Part shown: in pieces, positions 957-53,119 of the stretch
Position numbering within the stretch: the first letter of the stretch is position 1
Layout of the letters: every line of letters begins with the position of its first letter
NCBI GenBank assembly: GCA_022828085.1
Contig: JAJEIY010000083.1
Span: 1 to 64,000 of the forward strand
DNA from: Acidobacteriota bacterium
Lineage (GTDB): Bacteria; Acidobacteriota; Vicinamibacteria; Marinacidobacterales; Marinacidobacteraceae
Length of the DNA: 64,000 nucleotides
Direction of reading: 5' to 3'
The notes under the pieces: generated by a model
Told to the model about the DNA's origin: nothing
Seen by the model: only the letters and a program-made list of their open reading frames with translations
Databases searched by the model: none
Made by a program: the position numbers and the translations under genes

Positions 957-2387
957 TCAGGGGAATATCCCGAGTTCCTCGTAGGAGCGGCGGATTTTCT
1001 CGAGCGCCACCACGTAGGCCGCGGTCCGCAGGGTGCCGCATTCCGGAAACCGGTCGCGCGCGTCGCGGATCTCGTCGTAGGCTCTCGTCATCTTCTCTTC
1101 GAGCCCGCTCACCACGAGTTCCTTCTCGTCGGACTGGGTGACCAGGTTCTGCCGCATCTCCACGCTCAGCCGCTTGCCGGCGAGCGTCTCCGCGGCATTC
1201 AGCAACGCGTTCGTGTTCGCGATTTCGAGCCGCTTCTCGAGCAGCCCGAAGCGCATGTGGGAGAGGTTCCGCGCCCACTCGAAGTAGGAGACCACCACCC
1301 CGCCGGCGTTCAGGTACACATCGGGGATCACCGGGATGCCGCGTTCCCGGAGGATGCGGTCGCCCTCCGGGGTCGTGGGTCCGTTCGCCGCCTCGGCGAC
1401 CAGCTTCGCGTTCACCAGCGGCGCGGTTTCCCCGTGGATCACGTTCTCGACCGCCGCCGGGATCAGGACGTCGCATTCCATGGCCAGGATCGCCTCGGGG
1501 GGCAGTTCTTCCTCGGCGCCGGGGAATCCGCGGATGGTGCCGTGTTCCCGGCGCCACTCCAGGAGATCCCGCACCGGGATTCCCGACCCGGAGCGCGCCA
1601 CGATGGTGACGTCCCATTCGCCGATGGCGATGACCTTCGCGCCGCGCCGGACCAGGATGTCGGCGGTGTGGAAACCGACGTTCCCGAACCCCTGGATCGC
1701 GATGCGTTTGCCCGGCAGGCCGCGGGTCAGCCCACCGCCCGGAAAGTCCTCGACGAACTCGAGTCCGCGGGCGAGGCCCAGTACGACGCCCCGTCCGGTG
1801 GCGTCCTCACGCCCGCGAATGCCGCCCTGGGTGACCGGCTTGCCGGTCACGCTGGCGAAGTTGTCGATCCCGCCCGGATGCATCGCGTCGTAGGTGTCCG
1901 CGATCCAGGCCATCTCGCGCGCTCCCGTCCCGAGGTCGGGCGCCGGCACGTTGACCCCGGGGCCGATGAAGTTCTTGCGGATCAGCTCCGCGGTGTAGCG
2001 GCGGGTGATGCGTTCCACCTGCTCCGCGCTGTAGCGGCGCGGATCGAAGGCGATGCCGCCCTTCGAACCGCCGAAGGGCACGTTCACGATCGCGCACTTG
2101 TAGGTCATCAGCGCCGAGAGCGCGCTGATCTCCTGCTGGTTCACCAGCGGGCTGTAGCGGATCCCCCCCTTGAGGGGATGACGGTGATGGCTGTGCTCCG
2201 CCCGCCAACCGGAAAAGACTTCCACCCGGTCCCCGAACTTGACCGGAAACCGCGTGTAGTAGATCGAGTCGGTGACGCAGATCTGCTGCAGGAGTCCCTC
2301 GGGAAGCTGGAGCGCGCGCGCCGCTTCGTGGACGAGACCCTGAACGTTCCGCTCGAGGTTCAGGTCGGAAGCGCCGTTTCCCCTCAT
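957..2387 (-). CDS. gdhA: Glu/Leu/Phe/Val dehydrogenase family, probable glutamate dehydrogenase
   Basis: This 476-residue protein interconverts glutamate and 2-oxoglutarate plus ammonia with NAD(P). The substrate-binding and catalytic lysines sit in PLKGGIRYSP (K73) and MTYKCAIVNVPFGGSKGG (K97, K109). The catalytic aspartate is in NVPAPDLGTG (D151). The Rossmann dinucleotide motif is GFGNVG at about 233-238. Length fits hexameric bacterial GDH. The frame stays open further upstream, but ATG at 2387 is preferred because it makes a 4-base ATGA overlap with the stop of the upstream hydrolase, indicating translational coupling. NAD versus NADP preference cannot be read safely. Confidence 0.92.
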   Translation of the reverse strand: MRGNGASDLNLERNVQGLVHEAARALQLPEGLLQQICVTDSIYYTRFPVKFGDRVEVFSGWRAEHSHHRHPLKGGIRYSPLVNQQEISALSALMTYKCAIVNVPFGGSKGGIAFDPRRYSAEQVERITRRYTAELIRKNFIGPGVNVPAPDLGTGAREMAWIADTYDAMHPGGIDNFASVTGKPVTQGGIRGREDATGRGVVLGLARGLEFVEDFPGGGLTRGLPGKRIAIQGFGNVGFHTADILVRRGAKVIAIGEWDVTIVARSGSGIPVRDLLEWRREHGTIRGFPGAEEELPPEAILAMECDVLIPAAVENVIHGETAPLVNAKLVAEAANGPTTPEGDRILRERGIPVIPDVYLNAGGVVVSYFEWARNLSHMRFGLLEKRLEIANTNALLNAAETLAGKRLSVEMRQNLVTQSDEKELVVSGLEEKMTRAYDEIRDARDRFPECGTLRTAAYVVALEKIRRSYEELGIFP

Positions 2388-3355
2388 GGTCCGGGATCGT
2401 AGAGCAGTTTCGCCGGCGTTACGCCCTCCTCCGGCGTGAGATCCAGGAATCCCGCGAGCGCCGCCTCGCACGCGTGCGGCTTCCGGAGGCACGGGCGGCC
2501 GTGTGTCGCGCCCTCGACGACGACCATCCGGCTCTCCCGCTGACCGTTCGCGCGGAATACGGCGGCCTGCGCCTCGAGCGGCGCTCTCCGGTCCTCGTCG
2601 CCGGCAATCACCAGCACGGGGACCCCCGCATCCCCGAGACCGGCCGCGAACCGCTCCACGTCCATCTCCCGCGGTTCGAAACCGGCGGCGAGTTCGAGCC
2701 CGAGCAAGGTCAGGTCTCCGGCCGGAAAAGGGGGCAGACCCACCAGGAGGGCCGCGTACCGATCGACCACCTCGGGGACGTTCCTGAAGGTGCTGTCGAG
2801 GACGACCCCCGTGACATCGGCCGCCATGGCGGCCCCGGCGCGCGCCGCCGCCGCTCCGCCCATCGAGACCCCGAGGAGATAGAGGCGGTTCTCCGGAAAC
2901 TCGCGCCGGAGGAAACGGGCCCCCGCCATCACGTCGAGCCCCTCCAGAAAACCGAGGCTGGTGCGGGTTCCGCCGCTGTCGCCATGGCGTCTGAGGTCAA
3001 GGGTCAGGGCATGGCACCCGCGCGCCGCCAGGTACGCCGCGCGGTCCAGCACTTCGCGGCGCGACCGGAAGAGGCCGTGGGCGAGCACCACGGAACACCC
3101 GGCGGGATGCGGCGCCCTCAGGAGCCAGGAAGCGAGCCGCACTCCGTCTTCGCTCCTGAGCAGGACGGTCCGGTAGGACAGTCCGTAGTCCCCGGGCGTC
3201 GCCCGGTCCTGGAGGTCCTGGGGGCGGGTCCCCGAAGACCGGGCGAGAAGCACGCCCACCGCCGTGGGAAGGGAGAGGGCGACGAGCACCCCGAAGGCCG
3301 CCAGCCCCAGCAGGATTCGGCGCGCCTTCCGGCGGCGATTCCGCGCGCGGGTCAT
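2384..3355 (-). CDS. Membrane-anchored alpha/beta hydrolase
   Basis: This 323-residue protein has a basic N-terminus and one hydrophobic segment (about 12-38), suggesting membrane anchoring or export. The hydrolase core follows: VVLAHGLFRS as the oxyanion region, nucleophile elbow LGVSMGG (Ser164), probable acid in IAGDEDRRAP (D253 or D255) and His285 in EGATHG. The arrangement is typical of serine esterases or acylaminopeptidase-like hydrolases; the substrate is unknown. ATG at 3355 overlaps the MFS stop by ATGA, and its own stop overlaps the gdh start the same way. The fused longer frame upstream is a shadow of the MFS gene. Confidence 0.82.
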   Translation of the reverse strand: MTRARNRRRKARRILLGLAAFGVLVALSLPTAVGVLLARSSGTRPQDLQDRATPGDYGLSYRTVLLRSEDGVRLASWLLRAPHPAGCSVVLAHGLFRSRREVLDRAAYLAARGCHALTLDLRRHGDSGGTRTSLGFLEGLDVMAGARFLRREFPENRLYLLGVSMGGAAAARAGAAMAADVTGVVLDSTFRNVPEVVDRYAALLVGLPPFPAGDLTLLGLELAAGFEPREMDVERFAAGLGDAGVPVLVIAGDEDRRAPLEAQAAVFRANGQRESRMVVVEGATHGRPCLRKPHACEAALAGFLDLTPEEGVTPAKLLYDPGP

Positions 3356-4554
3356 CCGTTTGCGGACGCCGTTCCCTCGACGGATCCGGGTTCGGGGACA
3401 CGCGCGATCAGGACCACCGCGAGTACGCCGAACCCGGCCATCAGCCAGCAGACCGGTTCGAACCCGTACGGATACAGGAGCCCTCCGGCCGCGACCGCCG
3501 CCGCGATGCCGAGCTGCGAGAACACGTTCGAAAACCCCAGGAAACTCGCCCGGCGCGCCTTCGGCACCAGCTCGCTCCGGAGAGCGGTGAACGCCGCGAT
3601 GCGAGCCACCGCCAGACACCCGAAGAGAAGGAGAGCCACGATCAGCGGGGTACTCGAAAGCCACGGCAGCACCGGGGTCATGGCCGCGACGGCGCCGGAG
3701 ACCAGCACGGTGAAACGACGCTTGCCGACCCGGTCGGCGAGCGGCCCGGCGAGGAGTTGCGCGGCCATGATCGCGGCGCCAAGTCCCCCGTAGAGCACAC
3801 CGACCGCTTCCAGCGAGAATCCGCGCACCTCCTGCAGCCAACCCGAGGCGTACGCGGAAATCCCCACCAGGCTCCCGGACATGCAGAACGCGGCGAACGC
3901 CGCCGTCCGGTGGACCGGGCTCTTCAGGAATTCCACGTGGCCCGCCAGCCTGTGTCCGAGCGGCCCCGGAACCGTTTCCGGCGACCGCGCTTCCGGGAGC
4001 GCGAAGAGCATCGCCAGGGTGAGGGCCGCCAGGACTGCGATCGCCCCATACACGATCTGATGGCCGAAACGGCCGGCGGCGAAGGCCGCCCCGACCTGTC
4101 CCAGGATGGCGGCCCCCATCGCTCCCCCCATGAGGAAGGCCATGACCCTGCCCCGCCGCCGGTACGGCACCAGATCGGCAATCCAGGCGACGGCGAGCGC
4201 CGCGATCGTGCCGCCGGCGAACCCGGCGGCGAGCCGCGCCAGCATGAACGCGGCGTAGTGGGGCGTCAGGGAGATCACGCACGCGGACGCCAGCATCAGG
4301 GCGGCGCCGAGGAGCAGGTAGGGGCGGCGCCCGCGGGAGTCCGAGAGCGGGCCCATGACCAGCGCGGCGAGGGCGGCCGCGAAGGAGTACGCCGAGATGG
4401 CGAGGCCGACCTCGGCTACCCCGACCCGGAGTCCCCCGGCGAGGGCCGCGATCAGCGGGGTGATCACCTGCTGGTCGAGCAACCCGAGTGCGATCACCGT
4501 GCCCAGCACCACGCCGGGCCAGGTGAGCGAGGATGTCTCGGGGCGGATCGTCAA
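3352..4554 (-). CDS. MFS transporter, DHA1-like
   Basis: This 400-residue protein has about twelve hydrophobic segments in two halves. A loop motif between helices 2 and 3, GPLSDSRGRRPYLL, resembles the MFS signature GxLaDrxGrkxxl, with a second copy GPLADRVGKRRF in the C-terminal half. This is the pattern of proton-driven drug or sugar efflux carriers; the substrate is not predictable. The first codon in frame is TTG at 4554, with no good ATG before the first membrane helix, so a TTG start is likely. It is the first gene of the minus-strand run that ends with pgsA and is divergent from the DUF349 gene. Confidence 0.85.
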   Translation of the reverse strand: MTIRPETSSLTWPGVVLGTVIALGLLDQQVITPLIAALAGGLRVGVAEVGLAISAYSFAAALAALVMGPLSDSRGRRPYLLLGAALMLASACVISLTPHYAAFMLARLAAGFAGGTIAALAVAWIADLVPYRRRGRVMAFLMGGAMGAAILGQVGAAFAAGRFGHQIVYGAIAVLAALTLAMLFALPEARSPETVPGPLGHRLAGHVEFLKSPVHRTAAFAAFCMSGSLVGISAYASGWLQEVRGFSLEAVGVLYGGLGAAIMAAQLLAGPLADRVGKRRFTVLVSGAVAAMTPVLPWLSSTPLIVALLLFGCLAVARIAAFTALRSELVPKARRASFLGFSNVFSQLGIAAAVAAGGLLYPYGFEPVCWLMAGFGVLAVVLIARVPEPGSVEGTASANG

Positions 4555-4717: not shown

Positions 4718-7648
4718 ATGTCCGTTCTCGAACGATTCGCGTCGCCGATCCGCAGCCGCGACGCCTCCGTTCGTCTCAAGGCAGTCCAGAAACACCCTCC
4801 CGAAGACACCGGGACACTCGCGGACCTGGCGCGCTCCGATCCCGACGCCCGCGTCCGCAAGGAGGCGGTGCGCCGCCTCGAGGCGCCCCGCGTGCTGCTC
4901 GAGCTGATCGACAGCGCTGGCGACGAAGCGGCCCGCCGGCTGGCGCGGTCCCGGGGCGAGGCGCTCCTGGTCAAGATCGCCGCCGACGACCGGGACGAGG
5001 CGGAGTCGCGGCGGGCGCTCGGACTTCTCACTCCGCTGCGCGCCGTCGCCGAAGTGGCGTGCCGCGCCCACTTCGAGGCGATCCGCGGCGAGGCGCTCGC
5101 GCGTCTGACCGCCGTTCCCCCGGAAGAGGGCGACCGCGATTCGGCCCTCGCGACGGTGGCCGGACGGGCCGCGGAACCCGCTCTCCGAAGCCACGCCCTC
5201 GAGGCCATTTCCAGTCCGGCCGGCCTCCTGCAGGTGGCGGTAGCGGCGGAAGACCGCGAGAGCGCCCAGGCCGCGGTCCGCCGTCTCGAGGATCCGGACC
5301 TGCTGCTCACCGCAGCGGCCGGCAGCAACTCGAAGAGCGTCCGCCGGCTTGCCCGGCGCCGGGCCGAGGAACGGCTGCCTCCGGATCATCCGGAAAGGGT
5401 TCAGCTGCGCGAGAAGGCTCTCGGGGGCCTGCTCGACCGCCTCGCCGCCGCCGATCCGGCGAGTCCGGCCCAGAGCGCGAGCCTGCTCGCGGAGGCGAAC
5501 GGCGTGATCGCCTCCGGACCGGTCGCGGACGAACTCACCGCCCGGCTCGCAGAGCTGCGGGGAAGCCTCGAGGGCGGAGCATCCCGCGGCGAGGGTGCGG
5601 CTCGCCTTGCCTTTCCCGAAGAAGAAGCCCTTCGCGACGCCGGAGAGCACGCCCCGGCCGAAGCGGAGGCGCCCCCGCCGGATCCTCCGCCGGCCGCCGA
5701 GGAGATCCTCACCCGGCTGGAAGACCCCGAAGCGGCCCTGAGTCTGGCCGAGGTGGAAGCAGCCGAACGGGAATGCCGCACCCTGCTCGAGGGGACGGCG
5801 GCCGCGGAGCAAATCGGTACGCGGCTGCGTGCCGCGGCGGAAGGCGCCAGGGAACGGGCCCTCGGACGGAAGAAGGCCCGAATCCGCGAATTCCAGGTCG
5901 CCGAACTGGCGGACCATGCGGTGGCCCTGGTCAAGTCCCTCGGCGAACGTCCCTCCGGCCCCGAGATTGCCCAGGCCCGCCGGGAACTCACGCGGCTCGG
6001 GCGCCGCTTCGATCGCCTGGACCCACCCGAGACTCCGGACGCCGACCGGTTCCGGACCGCCGCCCAGGAAGCGGACACCGCGCTCGGCGCCGCCGAGTCG
6101 GCGCGCGAGGACCGGGTCCAGAAGTCCGAGGAACGGATCACCGGACTCGAGGAGCGGCTCGCGTCGCTCGAATCGTCGGACCCGTTTCCGCTCGAACAGG
6201 GCGAGGCCGCCCTTCGTGAGCTCGGGACGCTCCGGAACGACGCCCCCCTCTGGCGCCAGGTGGGAGCGGAACGGCAGACACGCTTCCAACGCCTGCAGGC
6301 CGCGCTGATGCCGAGACTGCGGGAGGCCCGGGAACTTCGCGAGTGGCGTCACTGGTCCAACCTGGAAGAACAGGCGGATCTGATTCGCCGGGCGCGGGCG
6401 CTCGCCGAGGTCGAGGACCTCGAGCGCGTGGACCGCGAGCTCGCCGCGCTCGAACGCGCCTGGCACAAGGCTCGCCACACCGGACGCGATCGGGGTCAGG
6501 AACTCTGGGAAGAGTGGGGCAAGGCGCGGGAAGCCATCCTCGAACGGATCGGCCCCCTGCGAGAGGCCGCCGAGCGCGAGCTCGGCGAAAAGCTGGACGG
6601 GCTCCGCGCGCTCGTCGAAAAGGCGGAGGAGATCGCCGAGAGCGCCGACGGCCGGAGGGCCGCCGAGATCCGCGCGCTGATGCCCGCGTGGCGCGACCGC
6701 GCCAAGGGCATGGGCAAGCGCTCGGAGCGACTCTGGAAGCAGTTCCGCGCCGCGAACGACCGGTACTTCACCGAACTCAAGGCGGTGAGGAAAAAGCGCT
6801 ACGAGGAGTTCGCCGCCAACATCCCGATCCGCGAGGACCTGATCGCCCGCGCGAAGGCGCTGTTCGACCACACCGATGCCGAGACGGTCCGGAACGCGGT
6901 TCGCGACCTGATGCGCGAGTGGAAGGAGTCGCCCCCCGTCCCGCGCAAGGAGGGCGACCGCCTCTGGGAAGACTTCCGGACCGCCTGCGACGGGGCGCGG
7001 GACCGCCTCCGGGAAGCGGCGGGGAACGCGAAGTCCGACGCCGGCGCTCCCGAAACCACACCGCGCAGCGAGGCCGACGACGCCCTCCGCGCCCGCATCA
7101 CGGAAGTCGCCGCCCAACCCGCCGAGGAACAGCGCGACGCCGCTATTTCGCTCTGGGAGGAATATCGGCGGATCCGCCGGTCGACGGACCGTCTCGGCCG
7201 CGAAACCGAAGGCGCCCTCTTCGCTTGTCTCCGGAAGGCCCTCGAAAAGGATCCGGACTCCTTCGCCGAGACGCGCCTCGATCAGGAGCAGCTCGGTTCG
7301 CGGCTCACGGGACTCCTGGCCGAGATGGAGGCGCTCGCCGAACCCCGCGCGCCCGTCTCGTCGGAAGGCGGGGTGGTTGACTTCGCGGAGCACCTGAAGC
7401 GCACGCTGCAGGCCGGCAGGGCCGCCGATCGCGGCGCCGTCCTCCGGGAGGACGCACAGGCGGCGACGCGGATTCTGGAGCGCGCCCGGGCCGCGGGCCC
7501 GGCGCTCTCCGCGCCCGCGGTGGAAACGTTGAAGCGGATCGACGGGCTCGCCCGGAAGGTCATCGCGCGGGCGCCGTCGCTCGAGGAGGGGCGGGATCGC
7601 CCCCGCTCCGGATCCCGGTCCCGCGGACGGCGCCCGCCCCGGCGCTAG
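4718..7648 (+). CDS. Large HEAT-like/DUF349 coiled-coil protein
   Basis: This is a 976-residue, highly charged, soluble protein. The first 250 or so residues look like short alpha-helical HEAT-type repeats (for example SDPDARVRKEAVRRL). The remainder is long acidic/basic coiled coil containing DUF349 units of the W-x3-G-x4-R-x4-LW-x-F type. Examples are ALMPAWRDRAKGMGKRSERL and LMREWKESPPVP followed by EGDRLWEDFR. DUF349 proteins have no firmly assigned biochemical role; the helical array suggests a scaffold or nucleic-acid-associated protein. ATG 4718 is chosen because the HEAT-like region begins there; the upstream extension is low-complexity. It stands alone, divergent from the MFS gene. 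Confidence 0.8.
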   Translation: MSVLERFASPIRSRDASVRLKAVQKHPPEDTGTLADLARSDPDARVRKEAVRRLEAPRVLLELIDSAGDEAARRLARSRGEALLVKIAADDRDEAESRRALGLLTPLRAVAEVACRAHFEAIRGEALARLTAVPPEEGDRDSALATVAGRAAEPALRSHALEAISSPAGLLQVAVAAEDRESAQAAVRRLEDPDLLLTAAAGSNSKSVRRLARRRAEERLPPDHPERVQLREKALGGLLDRLAAADPASPAQSASLLAEANGVIASGPVADELTARLAELRGSLEGGASRGEGAARLAFPEEEALRDAGEHAPAEAEAPPPDPPPAAEEILTRLEDPEAALSLAEVEAAERECRTLLEGTAAAEQIGTRLRAAAEGARERALGRKKARIREFQVAELADHAVALVKSLGERPSGPEIAQARRELTRLGRRFDRLDPPETPDADRFRTAAQEADTALGAAESAREDRVQKSEERITGLEERLASLESSDPFPLEQGEAALRELGTLRNDAPLWRQVGAERQTRFQRLQAALMPRLREARELREWRHWSNLEEQADLIRRARALAEVEDLERVDRELAALERAWHKARHTGRDRGQELWEEWGKAREAILERIGPLREAAERELGEKLDGLRALVEKAEEIAESADGRRAAEIRALMPAWRDRAKGMGKRSERLWKQFRAANDRYFTELKAVRKKRYEEFAANIPIREDLIARAKALFDHTDAETVRNAVRDLMREWKESPPVPRKEGDRLWEDFRTACDGARDRLREAAGNAKSDAGAPETTPRSEADDALRARITEVAAQPAEEQRDAAISLWEEYRRIRRSTDRLGRETEGALFACLRKALEKDPDSFAETRLDQEQLGSRLTGLLAEMEALAEPRAPVSSEGGVVDFAEHLKRTLQAGRAADRGAVLREDAQAATRILERARAAGPALSAPAVETLKRIDGLARKVIARAPSLEEGRDRPRSGSRSRGRRPPRR

Positions 7649-7671
7649 CGCGGTCTCGAACCGGCGTTGCG

Positions 7672-9912
7672 CTACCCGATTCTGAGCCGCAGGGCGTTGC
7701 CGACCACCGTGAGCGAGGAGAGCGCCATGGCGGCGGCGGCCGCTTCGGGCGGCAGCAGCAGTCCGGTCGCCGGATAGAGGGCGCCCGCGGCGAGCGGGAG
7801 GGCCGCCACGTTGTAGATGAAGGCCCAGAACAGGTTCTGGCGGATGATCCGGAGCGAACGGCGGGCGATGCGCACCGCGACGCTCACGAGACGCAGGTCT
7901 GGGCGCATCAGGGTCACCCCGGCGGCCTCCCGCGCGATCTCGGTGCCCTGGGCGAGCGCGATTCCCACGTCGGCGCGGGCGAGCGCCGGGGCGTCGTTGA
8001 TCCCGTCGCCGACCATCGCCACCCGGCCGTAGCGTTCGCGCAGACGGTCCACGGCGGAGAGCTTCTGGGCCGGGAGGAGTCCTCCCTCGACGTTCCGGAC
8101 GCCGATCTCCAAACCGGTTGCCGCCACCGCCGCGGCTTCGTCGCCCGAGACCAGGGACACCGCGAGTCCATCGTCGTCGAGTCTCCGGACGAGGTCCGCC
8201 GCTTCCGGGCGCGGCCGGTCCCGGAACCCGATGCTCCCGGCGAACTCGGTCCGGCCGGCCGATTCCGAAACCACCCGCAACCAGCCGGAGGCGCCGCCCC
8301 CGCCCGGATCCTCGGGGACCGGCAGGCCCCGTTCCCGGAGCAGACGCTCGCTCCCCACCCACGCGCGGGTCCCTCCGCTGAACGTGGCCGTGACGCCGCG
8401 GCCCGGGAGGGCCTCGAAGCGTTCCGGTGTCCGGAGATCCATCGCCTCGCCGCGGGCGTGGGCGACGAGCGCCACGCCGAGGGGATGTTCGGACCCCTGT
8501 TCCGCCGAGGCCGCGAACCGGAGCAGTTCGTCCCGGGTCCAGCCGGGCGCGGGTTCCGCCGCCACGACCACGGGGGTCCCGGTTGTCACGGTTCCGGTCT
8601 TGTCCAGCGCTACCGCGCACACCGCCGCCAGGGCCTCCAGCGCCCCGCCGGAGCGGAACAGGATTCCCTGCCGGGCGCTCCGCCCGGTGGCCACCAGGAC
8701 CGCGATCGGCGCCGCCAGCCCGATGGCGCAGGGACAGGCCACCACCAACACCGCCACCCCGCGGGCCAGCGCGAAGTCGAGCGCGCCGTCCACCAGCAGC
8801 CAGGCGGCGAAGGTCAGGACCGCCGCCGCCATGACGGCGGGGACGAAGACCCCTGCCACCCGGTCCGCGGTTCGCTGGATGGGAATCTTCTCCGTCTGCG
8901 CCTTCCGGACCGCCGCGGCGATCCGGGACACCGTGCTGTCGGCGGCGGGACGGGTCACTTCGATCTCGGCGGCCCCGGTGAGGTTCATCGCCCCCGCCAC
9001 GACCCGGTCGGAGACCGTCCGTTCGACGGGCACGCTCTCCCCGGTCAGCAGCGACTCGTCCATGGCCGCCCCGCCCCGCGCGATCCGTCCGTCGAGCGGC
9101 ACGCGCTCTCCGGGGCGCACGCGAACGTGTTCGCCCCGACGCACTTCCGCCACCGGCACCAGGCGCTCGATACCGTCCCGCACCACCCGCGCCCGGTCGG
9201 GAGCAAAGGCCAGCAACTCGGTCAGGGCATCGGTGGCGCGGCCCCGGGCGCGGTCTTCGAGCCAGCGGCCGAGGCGGACGATGGCGACGATGAGCGCGGC
9301 GGTGTCGAAGAACAGCATCCCCGCGCCGCCCGCCGCGAGCGCTACGACCGAGGAAACGTACGCGGCTCCGGCGCCGAGCCCGATGAGGCTGTCCATGCCG
9401 AACGTCCAGTTGCGGAGCGAGTTTCCGAGCGCCTTGACGAAGGCCCAACCGAAGAGCAGGCAAACGGGAGTCGCCAGCGCGAACTGAGCGAGGCGCCCAG
9501 CGGTGGAGGCCCCGAAGCCGCTCATCGCAACCCCCATCGCCGCGCCGGCGAGCGCCAGGCCCCCGAGAACCGGAAGGAACCCGTCCCGCCAACGGGAGCT
9601 GGCGGCGGACTCCCCCGGCTCCGCGGCGGCGGCCGGCGAGGCCGTCTCGACCCGATACGGGCCGGCGGACTCCACGGCCCCCGCGATGTCGGCCGCGAGG
9701 GCGGAGTCCATGGGCCGCGTGTCCGCGAGGCTCACCGAAAGGTCACCCGTGAGCAGGCTCACCTCCGCGCCCTCGACCCCGGGAAGGTCTCCGACCGCCT
9801 TCTCGATGCTCGCGACGCATCCGGCGCAGTGCATCCCGACGACCCGGGCCTCGAACCGGCCGTCTCCGGCGGTTTCTGGTTCCGGCGTACGCGGCTCTGC
9901 AGCGGCATCCAT
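7672..9912 (-). CDS. copA: Heavy-metal (Cu+) translocating P1B-type ATPase
   Basis: This 746-residue ATPase drives metal export across the cytoplasmic membrane. It has an N-terminal heavy-metal-associated domain with GMHCAGC (C29, C32), then membrane helices. The actuator motif TGES is at 290-293, the transmembrane metal-binding CPC at 393-395, the phosphorylated aspartate in DKTGT at D437, the HP motif in SEHPLG and hinge GDGINDAP near residue 640. CPC with MxCxxC is the Cu(I)/Ag(I) signature. ATG 9912 is preferred because GGGAG lies just upstream and the longer frame reads through an intergenic repeat. No chaperone or CueR-type regulator is adjacent. Confidence 0.92.
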   Translation of the reverse strand: MDAAAEPRTPEPETAGDGRFEARVVGMHCAGCVASIEKAVGDLPGVEGAEVSLLTGDLSVSLADTRPMDSALAADIAGAVESAGPYRVETASPAAAAEPGESAASSRWRDGFLPVLGGLALAGAAMGVAMSGFGASTAGRLAQFALATPVCLLFGWAFVKALGNSLRNWTFGMDSLIGLGAGAAYVSSVVALAAGGAGMLFFDTAALIVAIVRLGRWLEDRARGRATDALTELLAFAPDRARVVRDGIERLVPVAEVRRGEHVRVRPGERVPLDGRIARGGAAMDESLLTGESVPVERTVSDRVVAGAMNLTGAAEIEVTRPAADSTVSRIAAAVRKAQTEKIPIQRTADRVAGVFVPAVMAAAVLTFAAWLLVDGALDFALARGVAVLVVACPCAIGLAAPIAVLVATGRSARQGILFRSGGALEALAAVCAVALDKTGTVTTGTPVVVAAEPAPGWTRDELLRFAASAEQGSEHPLGVALVAHARGEAMDLRTPERFEALPGRGVTATFSGGTRAWVGSERLLRERGLPVPEDPGGGGASGWLRVVSESAGRTEFAGSIGFRDRPRPEAADLVRRLDDDGLAVSLVSGDEAAAVAATGLEIGVRNVEGGLLPAQKLSAVDRLRERYGRVAMVGDGINDAPALARADVGIALAQGTEIAREAAGVTLMRPDLRLVSVAVRIARRSLRIIRQNLFWAFIYNVAALPLAAGALYPATGLLLPPEAAAAAMALSSLTVVGNALRLRIG

Positions 9913-50499: not shown

Positions 50500-50650
50500 C
50501 GTGCGGGCCGCGAGGCCATCGGGCTCGGCGGTCAAATGCTAGCGGGAGCGACAGGAAGCTGAACAGCGGCGACAGGTCGAACGCTCGGCCTTTCCGGTCC
50601 GCGATGTAGGCGGGCGAACCGCAGTAGGAGGGACATTGTGCTAGAAACGT

Positions 50651-50679
50651 GAAAAACAAAAGCGATACTTTTGTTTTTC
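50651..50679. promoter_or_regulatory. Perfect AT-rich inverted repeat upstream of the DUF4143 ATPase
   Basis: GAAAAACAAAAG (50651-50662) and CTTTTGTTTTTC (50668-50679) form a perfect 12-base dyad around CGATA. It ends 15 bases before ATG 50695. In this GC-rich genome it stands out and looks like an operator for autoregulation, though a hairpin role is possible. Confidence 0.55.
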
Positions 50680-50694
50680 AAGTATCATGGCTCC

Positions 50695-51852
50695 ATGATC
50701 ACTCGCACGGGCCATGAAGCCCAGATCCGGGATCTTCTCGATCAGTTCCCGGTCGTCGGCATCGTCGGGGCGCGCCAGGTGGGCAAGACGACCCTCGCCC
50801 GCCGGCTGATCGCGGATCTGCCCAGACCGGTGACCTTCTTCGATCTGGAGGACCCGACCGACGAGCGCCGGCTGACGGACGCCAAGCTCGCGCTGGCGCC
50901 CCTTCGCGGACTGGTGGTCATTGACGAGGTGCAGCGGCACGAAGACCTCTTTCGCCTTCTACGGGTGCTCGTGGACCGCCCCGACAACCCGGCCCGCTTC
51001 CTCATCCTGGGGAGCGCGAGCCCCGCGCTCCTGCGCCAATCCTCCGAGAGCCTGGCGGGCCGCATCGCGTACCACGAGCTGCCGCCCTTCCGGATCGGCG
51101 AAGTCGGCACGGGGCCGGACACGGTCGAGCGGCTCTGGCTCCGGGGCGGTTTTCCCCGCTCGTTCCGTGCCGCGGATGACCGCCGGAGCATGCGCTGGCG
51201 CTCCACCTTCATCCGAACCTTCCTGGAGCGGGACCTCCCGCAACTGGGCGTCGCGATCCCGGCGGCCACCATGCGGCGCTTCTGGACGATGGTGGCGCAC
51301 TACCACGGGAGCGTCTGGAACCACGCCGAGCTGGCTCGCGCCCTCGGCGTCACCGCTCCGACGGTGATGACCTACCTCGACGCTCTGGTGGATGCGCTCG
51401 TCGTGCGGCGCCTCGTGCCCTGGTTCGAGAACCTGAAGAAGCGGCAGGTCAAGGCGCCGAAGGTCTATGTGGCCGATTCCGGCCTGCTGCACGCGCTCCT
51501 GGGCCTCGAGTCCTCCGAGGCGCTGCTTGGCCACCCGAAGTCGGGCCTCTCCTGGGAGGGTTTCGCCCTTCACGAGGTCGTGCATCGCCTGGGGTTCGCG
51601 TGGGAGAACTGCTACTACTGGGGGACGCATGGGGGCGCCGAGCTGGACCTGCTGGCGTTCGACGGCGGCCGCCGCCTCGGATTCGAGTTCAAGCGGACGA
51701 GCGCGCCGGGCATGACGCGCTCCATGCACGCGGCGCTCGCCGACCTGCGGCTCGACCGGTTGTTCGTCGTTTTCCCCGGCGGCGGCCGCTTCTCCCTGCA
51801 CGCGAGGGTGGAGGCGATAGGGCTGGAACGGCTGGTAGCCGAAGGTCTTTGA
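50695..51852 (+). CDS. AAA_14/DUF4143 ATPase
   Basis: This 385-residue protein has an N-terminal P-loop ATPase domain with Walker A GARQVGKTTLARRL, Walker B LVVIDEVQR and the sensor segment FLILGSASPALL. The C-terminal DUF4143 part is PD-(D/E)XK-like, with the run ELDLLAFDGGRRLGFEFK including a D-x-n-ExK core. These proteins are widespread and mobile in bacteria and archaea and have no settled role. ATG 50695 is chosen; a TTG lies 24 bases upstream. It is preceded by the AT-rich dyad and the unknown gene. Confidence 0.88.
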   Translation: MITRTGHEAQIRDLLDQFPVVGIVGARQVGKTTLARRLIADLPRPVTFFDLEDPTDERRLTDAKLALAPLRGLVVIDEVQRHEDLFRLLRVLVDRPDNPARFLILGSASPALLRQSSESLAGRIAYHELPPFRIGEVGTGPDTVERLWLRGGFPRSFRAADDRRSMRWRSTFIRTFLERDLPQLGVAIPAATMRRFWTMVAHYHGSVWNHAELARALGVTAPTVMTYLDALVDALVVRRLVPWFENLKKRQVKAPKVYVADSGLLHALLGLESSEALLGHPKSGLSWEGFALHEVVHRLGFAWENCYYWGTHGGAELDLLAFDGGRRLGFEFKRTSAPGMTRSMHAALADLRLDRLFVVFPGGGRFSLHARVEAIGLERLVAEGL

Positions 51853-51955
51853 CCCGCGGCTCGGGTGTCTTTGCGGACGTTCTCCGAGGGGAAGGTCGAG
51901 TTCAGAGCGAAGTCGGCCTGCTACTGTTTGTCGCCCGCTTCGGGCGGCGGCAACG

Positions 51956-53119
51956 ATGGATCGACGGACCCTGCTACGACTCGGTGGTGGAAGCCTGTTG
52001 GGCGCGGGTTTCGGCGCCTGCGCCGCACGCTCCGACGTCCTGCCACGGGAGCCGGCGTTCCGTCTGCCGATCGTGAACGTGGCGTGGAACCGGGTCATCC
52101 GCACCACCGTGGGACTTCGTCCGTACCGCCCCTCGGGGTTCGTGCTGCGCGCCGACAAGCTCGACGGCACCACCGTCCTCCACAACTACGGCCACGGCGG
52201 GTCAGGGATCTCGCTCTCCTGGGGTACGGGACGCCGGGTGGCCGAAATGGCGCTCGAGCACCGGAGCCGGCAGGCCGCCGTGATCGGCTGCGGAGCGGTG
52301 GGACTCGCGACGGCGCGTCAACTCCAGCGCCGCGGCTTCGAGGTAACGATCTACGCCATGTCCGTGCCGCCGAATACGACGTCGAACATGGCGTGGGCGG
52401 GTTTCACCCCGGCCGCCTGGCTGGTCGACGACAACATGCGGACGCCCGCGTTCGACGCTCAGTTCCGGGACGCCGCCGAGATCTCCTTTCGCGAGTTCCA
52501 GTGGCTTGTCGGCAGGGGATACGGAATCGACTGGCTTGACCGCTACACGGCCACCGACATCGAGCCGCGCGATCCGTCAGCCAGTCGGCGACCGCGCCGC
52601 CGGGAACCGCTCCTCCCCGACCACCTGATCAGCGGCCGGCTCCGGCTGGGGCCCGGGGAACATCCCTTCCCCACCCGCTACGCAACCCGGCGCAGCTACA
52701 TGCGGATCGAGCCGGCGACCTATCTGGACGCGCTGGTCCGCGACTTCGTGGAGGTCGGCGGGCGGATCGTGATCCGCAAGTTCACGGACGCCGAGGAACT
52801 TGTCGCACTCGAAGAGTCGCTCGTCGTGAACTGCACGGGACTTGGATCCGGGGAGCTGTTCCCCGATCCCGAACTGATGCCGCTCAAGGGGCAGCTCACC
52901 GTGCTCGTTCCGCAGTCGGAGATCAACTACGCGGTGTCCGGGAACGCCCCCGGGGCGCCGCCGGGTGTCGGCGGCTTCAGCATGCAGCCGCGGAGTTCCG
53001 GGATCATCCTCGGTGGGACCGGCGAGCGGGGGGAGTGGTCCCTGGAGCCGAATGCCGCGGCGCGCGAGTACATCGTGAACTCGAACATCGACTTCTTTGC
53101 GAGGATGCGGCGGGTCTGA
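51956..53119 (+). CDS. D-amino-acid-oxidase-like FAD oxidoreductase with permuted domain order
   Basis: This 387-residue flavoprotein begins with MDRRTLLRL and a lipobox-like GFGAC, so it is probably exported, possibly by Tat. GLRPYRPS (53-60) and HNYGHGGSGISLSWG (76-90), normally the C-terminal FAD/substrate part of DAAO and D-aspartate oxidase, come first. The Rossmann FAD motif AVIGCGAVGLATA (108-120), normally at the N-terminus, comes next. The substrate domain with SNMAWAGF and the tail IILGGTGERGEWSLEPN close the chain. The likely activity is oxidation of a D-amino acid or similar amine, untested. Confidence 0.8.
   Translation: MDRRTLLRLGGGSLLGAGFGACAARSDVLPREPAFRLPIVNVAWNRVIRTTVGLRPYRPSGFVLRADKLDGTTVLHNYGHGGSGISLSWGTGRRVAEMALEHRSRQAAVIGCGAVGLATARQLQRRGFEVTIYAMSVPPNTTSNMAWAGFTPAAWLVDDNMRTPAFDAQFRDAAEISFREFQWLVGRGYGIDWLDRYTATDIEPRDPSASRRPRRREPLLPDHLISGRLRLGPGEHPFPTRYATRRSYMRIEPATYLDALVRDFVEVGGRIVIRKFTDAEELVALEESLVVNCTGLGSGELFPDPELMPLKGQLTVLVPQSEINYAVSGNAPGAPPGVGGFSMQPRSSGIILGGTGERGEWSLEPNAAAREYIVNSNIDFFARMRRV

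Follow-up and report, generated by a model that had tools for sequence, protein, structure and literature searches.

A gene in the 64,000-nucleotide stretch of Acidobacteriota DNA that we analysed (the window) encodes what is almost certainly a natural circular permutant of the D-amino acid oxidase (DAAO)/D-aspartate oxidase (DASPO) fold. Sequence comparisons establish both the permutation and its conservation among relatives. Our best overall explanation, which we consider probable, is that the protein is an exported permutant of this kind that oxidizes a D-amino acid or a similar compound.

Segment order of the window protein

Canonical DAAO and DASPO proteins begin with the FAD Rossmann unit and end with the GxRPxR and YGHGGxG signatures, and the window protein departs from this order. 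It carries GxRPxR at residues 53-58 and YGHGGxG at residues 78-84, ahead of a Rossmann unit that contains VIGCGAVG (residues 109-116) and a PPNTTSN loop and at which the Pfam match begins (DAO, PF01266, from residue 107; profile positions 2-298 of 353; 118 bits against a cut-off of 27.9). The open reading frame and the motif positions reported in the original prediction, including those of GLRPYRPS and HNYGHGGSGISLSWG, were all recovered (Table 1). The displaced segment comprises the GLRP strand, the HNYGHGG strand/loop and the final helix, and GIILGGTGERGEW lies at residues 349-361. The C-terminus had been described as lacking a second GLRPxR, which is correct, and as stopping at 'IILGGTGERGEW', which is not: the chain runs beyond that point and ends in ...EYIVNSNIDFFARMRRV, the counterpart of the helix immediately ahead of GLRP in DAAO, so the chain appears to have been cut after the helix that follows the ILGGT strand and before the GLRP strand.

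Table 1. Features of the permuted gene and its product (window coordinates)
Feature	Position	Strand	Description and basis
Permuted DAAO-like flavoprotein gene	51956..53119	+	387 aa, stop codon included; ORF and translation; Pfam DAO E=6.6e-34
Tat-type lipoprotein signal, residues 1-22 (predicted)	51956..52021	+	RR at residues 3-4, hydrophobic stretch, lipobox Cys22
Displaced DAAO C-terminal segment, residues 45-104, now N-terminal	52088..52267	+	Aligns with 6rkf ~280-335
GLRPYRPS, residues 53-60	52112..52135	+	R55, taken as the DAAO Arg283 position (substrate carboxylate)
HNYGHGGSGISLSWG, residues 76-90	52181..52225	+	DAAO C-terminal signature and flavin loop
New junction, residues ~100-106	52253..52273	+	Old C-terminal helix to Rossmann strand 1; rotation-scan optimum
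FAD Rossmann beta-alpha-beta unit, residues 106-152	52271..52411	+	Aligns with the DAAO/DASPO N-terminus (chain 14-62)
Substrate domain and remaining FAD domain, residues 153-387	52412..53116	+	Aligns with chain 145-261
Ser342, DAAO Tyr228 position (substrate carboxylate)	52979..52981	+	Alignment columns, pig DAAO alignment

A phmmer search of the PDB with the native sequence produced three out-of-order blocks on the D-aspartate oxidase 6rkf (query residues 106-152 on chain 14-62, 246-371 on 145-261 and 48-100 on 280-335), and the total match to DAAO/DASPO chains cannot be attributed to chance given its E value of 1.9e-22. When residues 45-104 were moved to the end, blocks of 39.6 and 31.0 bits fused into one of 79.9 bits that spans ILGGT, the helix, GLRPYRP and HNYGHGG without a break, the end of the native chain continuing directly into GLRP, and the Pfam DAO match covered positions 2-353 of 353 in a single stretch at 133 bits, compared with 118 in the native order. 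A rotated profile built from eight family members aligned with DASPO in one piece (profile 1-327 of 333 on chain 14-336, E=5.9e-48), and its match to fungal and mammalian DAAO likewise runs from end to end. We then scored every fourth rotation point against an HMM built from canonical-order bacterial homologues only; the optimum fell at residues 100-104, with 178 bits in one domain versus 119 for the native order, and with the same HMM the best-domain score rose on rotation in 48 of 56 family members. Moving the tail to the front in four canonical proteins lowered their best-domain scores.

These data bear out the earlier proposal that the order is a permutation rather than a duplication: the rotated sequence matches collinearly from end to end, GxRP and HxxGHG occur once each in the 387-residue protein, and the order is retained in roughly 60 homologues that form one clan. 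Alternatively, an extra C-terminal module could have been added in front of a normal DAAO whose own tail was later lost or diverged. Tandem duplication is a plausible route to such a protein and does occur in this family, as a close tandem array of three permuted DAAO-like genes in one genome attests (G308; L090, positions 6235-9852). We nevertheless regard this history as very improbable, since the window chain stops where the GLRP strand would start, none of the permuted proteins repeats the GLRP/HNYGHGG module downstream of its Rossmann unit, and no protein with both orders was present among 79 distinct ORFs. A second GLRPxR/HNYGHGG segment after the Rossmann domain had been named beforehand as the refutation of a permutation; we looked for one in the window protein and it is absent. 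In a circular permutant, the old C-terminus, at the end of the HNYGHGG helix, would be joined to Rossmann strand 1 by only a few residues, and the rearrangement would most likely have begun with a tandem duplication or fusion followed by loss of the outer ends, for which the 79 ORFs yielded no evolutionary intermediate.

AlphaFold2 models of the window protein and of a signal-less relative (L059), both from eight-row alignments, were of low confidence overall (mean pLDDT 48 and 54, pTM 0.54 and 0.55, respectively). Within the low-confidence window model the junction forms a strand-helix-strand arrangement with local pLDDT mostly 73-91, and within the similarly low-confidence L059 model the junction scores mostly 84-94 but less around residues 51-70. 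Foldseek searches with these low-confidence models returned DAAO/DASPO structures for all matches better than E=1e-4, with low TM scores of ~0.3. We infer a DAAO fold from the sequence.

Distribution and origin of the permuted order

The roughly 60 homologues with the permuted order come from Acidobacteriota, several alphaproteobacterial plasmids and Nonomuraea, the spread outside Acidobacteriota being documented by plasmid records (Niveispirillum, Kozakia, Rhizobium, Bradyrhizobium, Mesorhizobium, the last frameshifted, and Nonomuraea). The window belongs to a draft genome of 93 contigs, in which a misassembly, a frameshift or a truncated tandem pair of DAAO genes might mimic a permuted order. 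Independent assemblies refute such an artefact, which we consider next to impossible: near-identical orthologues (94-98% identity) from separate MAG assemblies have the same order, as do dozens of homologues at 30-70% identity in finished plasmids and in genomes that are complete or nearly so. Furthermore, the window gene differs from orthologues that are 95-98% identical by 57-67 third-position versus 3-8 second-position codon changes, indicating that it is under purifying selection.

Among 297 sampled Acidobacteriota genomes, 26 encode a permuted form, eight a canonical form and none both, in a tally made from match orders. Canonical-order homologues were also present in Streptomyces, Mycobacterium, Nocardia and Burkholderia records. 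Useful homologues in IMG/VR were limited to L058 and L059/L060 (one sequence on two contigs), and the phage collection that we searched for homologues gave no match. Two candidate exceptions to the pattern were rejected: the Mesorhizobium locus (L071), which resembled a gene split naturally at the Rossmann junction, has a simple frameshift in its DNA, and L048, scored as canonical by a regular expression, owed this score to a chance GxGxxG in an upstream open frame.

In an unrooted tree covering 54 rows (40 permuted, 14 canonical), the permuted rows formed one clan with 100/100 support. The collinear block alone gave the same split with support of 100 and the displaced block alone with support of 92, indicating that both parts of the protein share a common history. 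Because the permuted rows form one clan, the permuted order likely arose once, and we take it to be the derived state because the DAO profile starts with the Rossmann unit.

Several variants of the family were observed. The genome that contains the window has a second permuted DAAO-like gene (L107; G000, contig C79, 3933-5039, minus strand) whose product is 52% identical to the window protein, has Tyr at the Tyr228 position and both RR and Cys at its N-terminus, and adjoins an amino-acid permease gene. A divergent clade (L027-L034, L061 and L062) has TRS in place of TTS in the FAD loop (Thr142 to Arg) and CLRP or a similar sequence in place of GLRP. One 733-aa open frame (L108, positions 1617-3815, in G152) is an unusual fusion of a canonical-order DAAO-like protein with a C-terminal region of ~350 aa.

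Export signal, active site and relation to known flavoenzymes

The N-terminus of the window protein, MDRRTLLRLGGGSLLGAGFGAC, contains a twin-arginine motif followed by Cys22 in a lipobox-like setting, which reads FGAC in this protein and LGAC in most orthologues. The proposal that it resembles a Tat/lipobox signal gains weight from its conservation in relatives and from the presence of TatC and Lgt genes in the genome. By script and by reading of N-termini, RR plus Cys was found in 51 of 58 permuted homologues, RR without Cys in three (L026, L030 and L062), and no signal in four (L059 and L063-L065). The protein is thus very probably exported, as a predicted Tat lipoprotein. Export appears to be separable from the permutation because the signal-less clade is also permuted; it was either not packaged with the permutation or was lost in that clade. 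The exported protein would acquire FAD and its fold in the cytoplasm before crossing the membrane through Tat, and Cys22 would keep it anchored there.

R55, which we take to be Arg283 in the numbering of mammalian DAAO, is invariant in all 54 rows (40 permuted, 14 canonical). The Tyr228 position is more variable: Ser occupies it in the window protein and the closest relatives, the main Acidobacteriota clade mostly has His, the paralogue and the signal-less clade have Tyr, and other members have Asn, Gly, Glu or Ser. Bacterial DAAOs are reported to have GxRPxR and YGHGGxG in common without strict conservation of the Tyr, and glycine oxidases to contain the same Arg-Pro pair (PMC9844085). Given these motifs, the window protein is nearly certain to be an FAD enzyme, and it likely binds FAD and a carboxylated substrate. 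Replacement of the substrate Tyr might instead point to a catalytically dead FAD-binding scaffold, yet neither the FAD motifs nor the substrate Arg vary within the family, and the window gene is under purifying selection, making a dead scaffold quite improbable. We lean slightly toward a D-amino-acid-like substrate, and the change from Tyr228 to Ser suggests that it may be shifted relative to that of DAAO. Catalysis would consist of oxidation of a D-amino acid, or a similar amino or imino acid, held by R55.

The window protein shares with DAAO/DASPO (PF01266) the FAD Rossmann unit, the TTS loop, NCTGLG, ILGGT, GLRPxR, YGHGGxG and the substrate Arg; it differs in its permuted order, its Tat lipoprotein signal and the Ser at Tyr228, and it belongs to a clan apart from canonical-order homologues. 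It is homologous to DAAO and yet, with its order and one substrate residue changed, is not to be filed as an ordinary member. Its canonical bacterial counterparts from Acidobacteriota and actinomycetes (L035-L038, L066-L067, L072-L075 and L079-L082) are homologous over the whole length after rotation but have the Rossmann unit first and the motifs last, and none of the eight phylum genomes that encode them has the permuted form. No NCBIfam model matched above its curated cut-off; the best was ThiO (TIGR02352; 42.7 bits versus a cut-off of 250.8), which shares the DAO fold but whose profile is in canonical order. DadA-type D-amino-acid dehydrogenases carry out FAD-dependent oxidation of D-amino acids without oxygen and are a functional analogy only: the window protein scores ~23 bits against DadA cut-offs near 400-500, and to our knowledge no known DadA is a Tat lipoprotein.

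Large cofactor enzymes are seldom circularly permuted in nature, and DAAO is a textbook and industrial flavoenzyme. In the open-access literature that we searched, we found no description of a naturally permuted DAAO, the matches being biosensor and engineering papers. Databases tend to hide the rearrangement, as the Pfam match starts only at the Rossmann unit and plasmid entries are named 'FAD-dependent oxidoreductase'. The family provides a natural setting in which to test how DAAO folding and FAD loading proceed under an altered chain order, and its new termini are ready-made for enzyme and sensor engineering.

Gene neighbourhood and electron acceptor

Genes near the permuted gene in relatives encode S9 prolyl oligopeptidases, M20 peptidases, an S15 X-Pro dipeptidyl peptidase, amidases and amino-acid permeases, and an M19 dipeptidase gene lies directly upstream. 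These neighbours, taken as a raw listing, tentatively suggest extracellular use of peptides and amino acids, and the protein is a candidate route to extracellular D-amino-acid use in Acidobacteriota. In two distant relatives (Kozakia plasmid L062 and L112 in G368), the gene directly downstream encodes cytochrome c, hinting at an electron acceptor other than oxygen. Electrons would go to oxygen or, alternatively, to a periplasmic carrier, for example cytochrome c; a non-oxygen acceptor is quite possible, though we lean a little against it.

The same observations bear on whether the permuted fold instead serves as a dehydrogenase of another carboxylated substrate, such as an N-substituted amino acid, a cyclic imino acid or a hydroxy acid. 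The cytochrome c neighbours, the TPP-dependent enzyme gene beside the permuted one in G404 and on rhizobial plasmids, and the non-Tyr residues at the Tyr228 position in much of the family are consistent with such an enzyme. R55 is invariant, however, strict conservation of the Tyr is reportedly lacking in bacterial DAAOs as well (PMC9844085), and the peptidase, amidase and permease neighbours fit amino-acid use, so that another substrate, while possible, seems to us somewhat doubtful. A broader reading, which we offer only tentatively and think rather unlikely, is that one ancient permutation founded a separate lineage whose lipid-anchored main branch, lacking the Tyr228 arrangement, consists of periplasmic dehydrogenases that feed cytochrome c; D-amino acids or peptide breakdown products would be the electron source in this joint reading, a part that we hold to be just as tentative. 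Our preferred explanation remains an exported DAAO/DASPO permutant that acts on a D-amino acid or similar compound.

The window gene itself has no metabolic neighbour; an AAA/DUF4143 ATPase gene (50640-51853) lies upstream, and a convergent seryl-tRNA-synthetase-like ORF lies downstream on the other strand. The AAA/DUF4143 gene is absent from this position in most orthologous loci (L003-L006 and L008) and is differently placed relative to the permuted gene in L007; it is a variable, possibly mobile, insertion. In rhizobial plasmids L063, L065 and L071, the permuted gene is followed by the TPP-dependent enzyme gene, and in the Rhizobium plasmid a gene for a berberine-bridge-type FAD oxidase lies upstream; the locus of the signal-less clade resembles a small operon of biosynthetic or catabolic function. 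In L111, which belongs to another clade, a gene for a Tat-type TPP enzyme is adjacent to the permuted gene.
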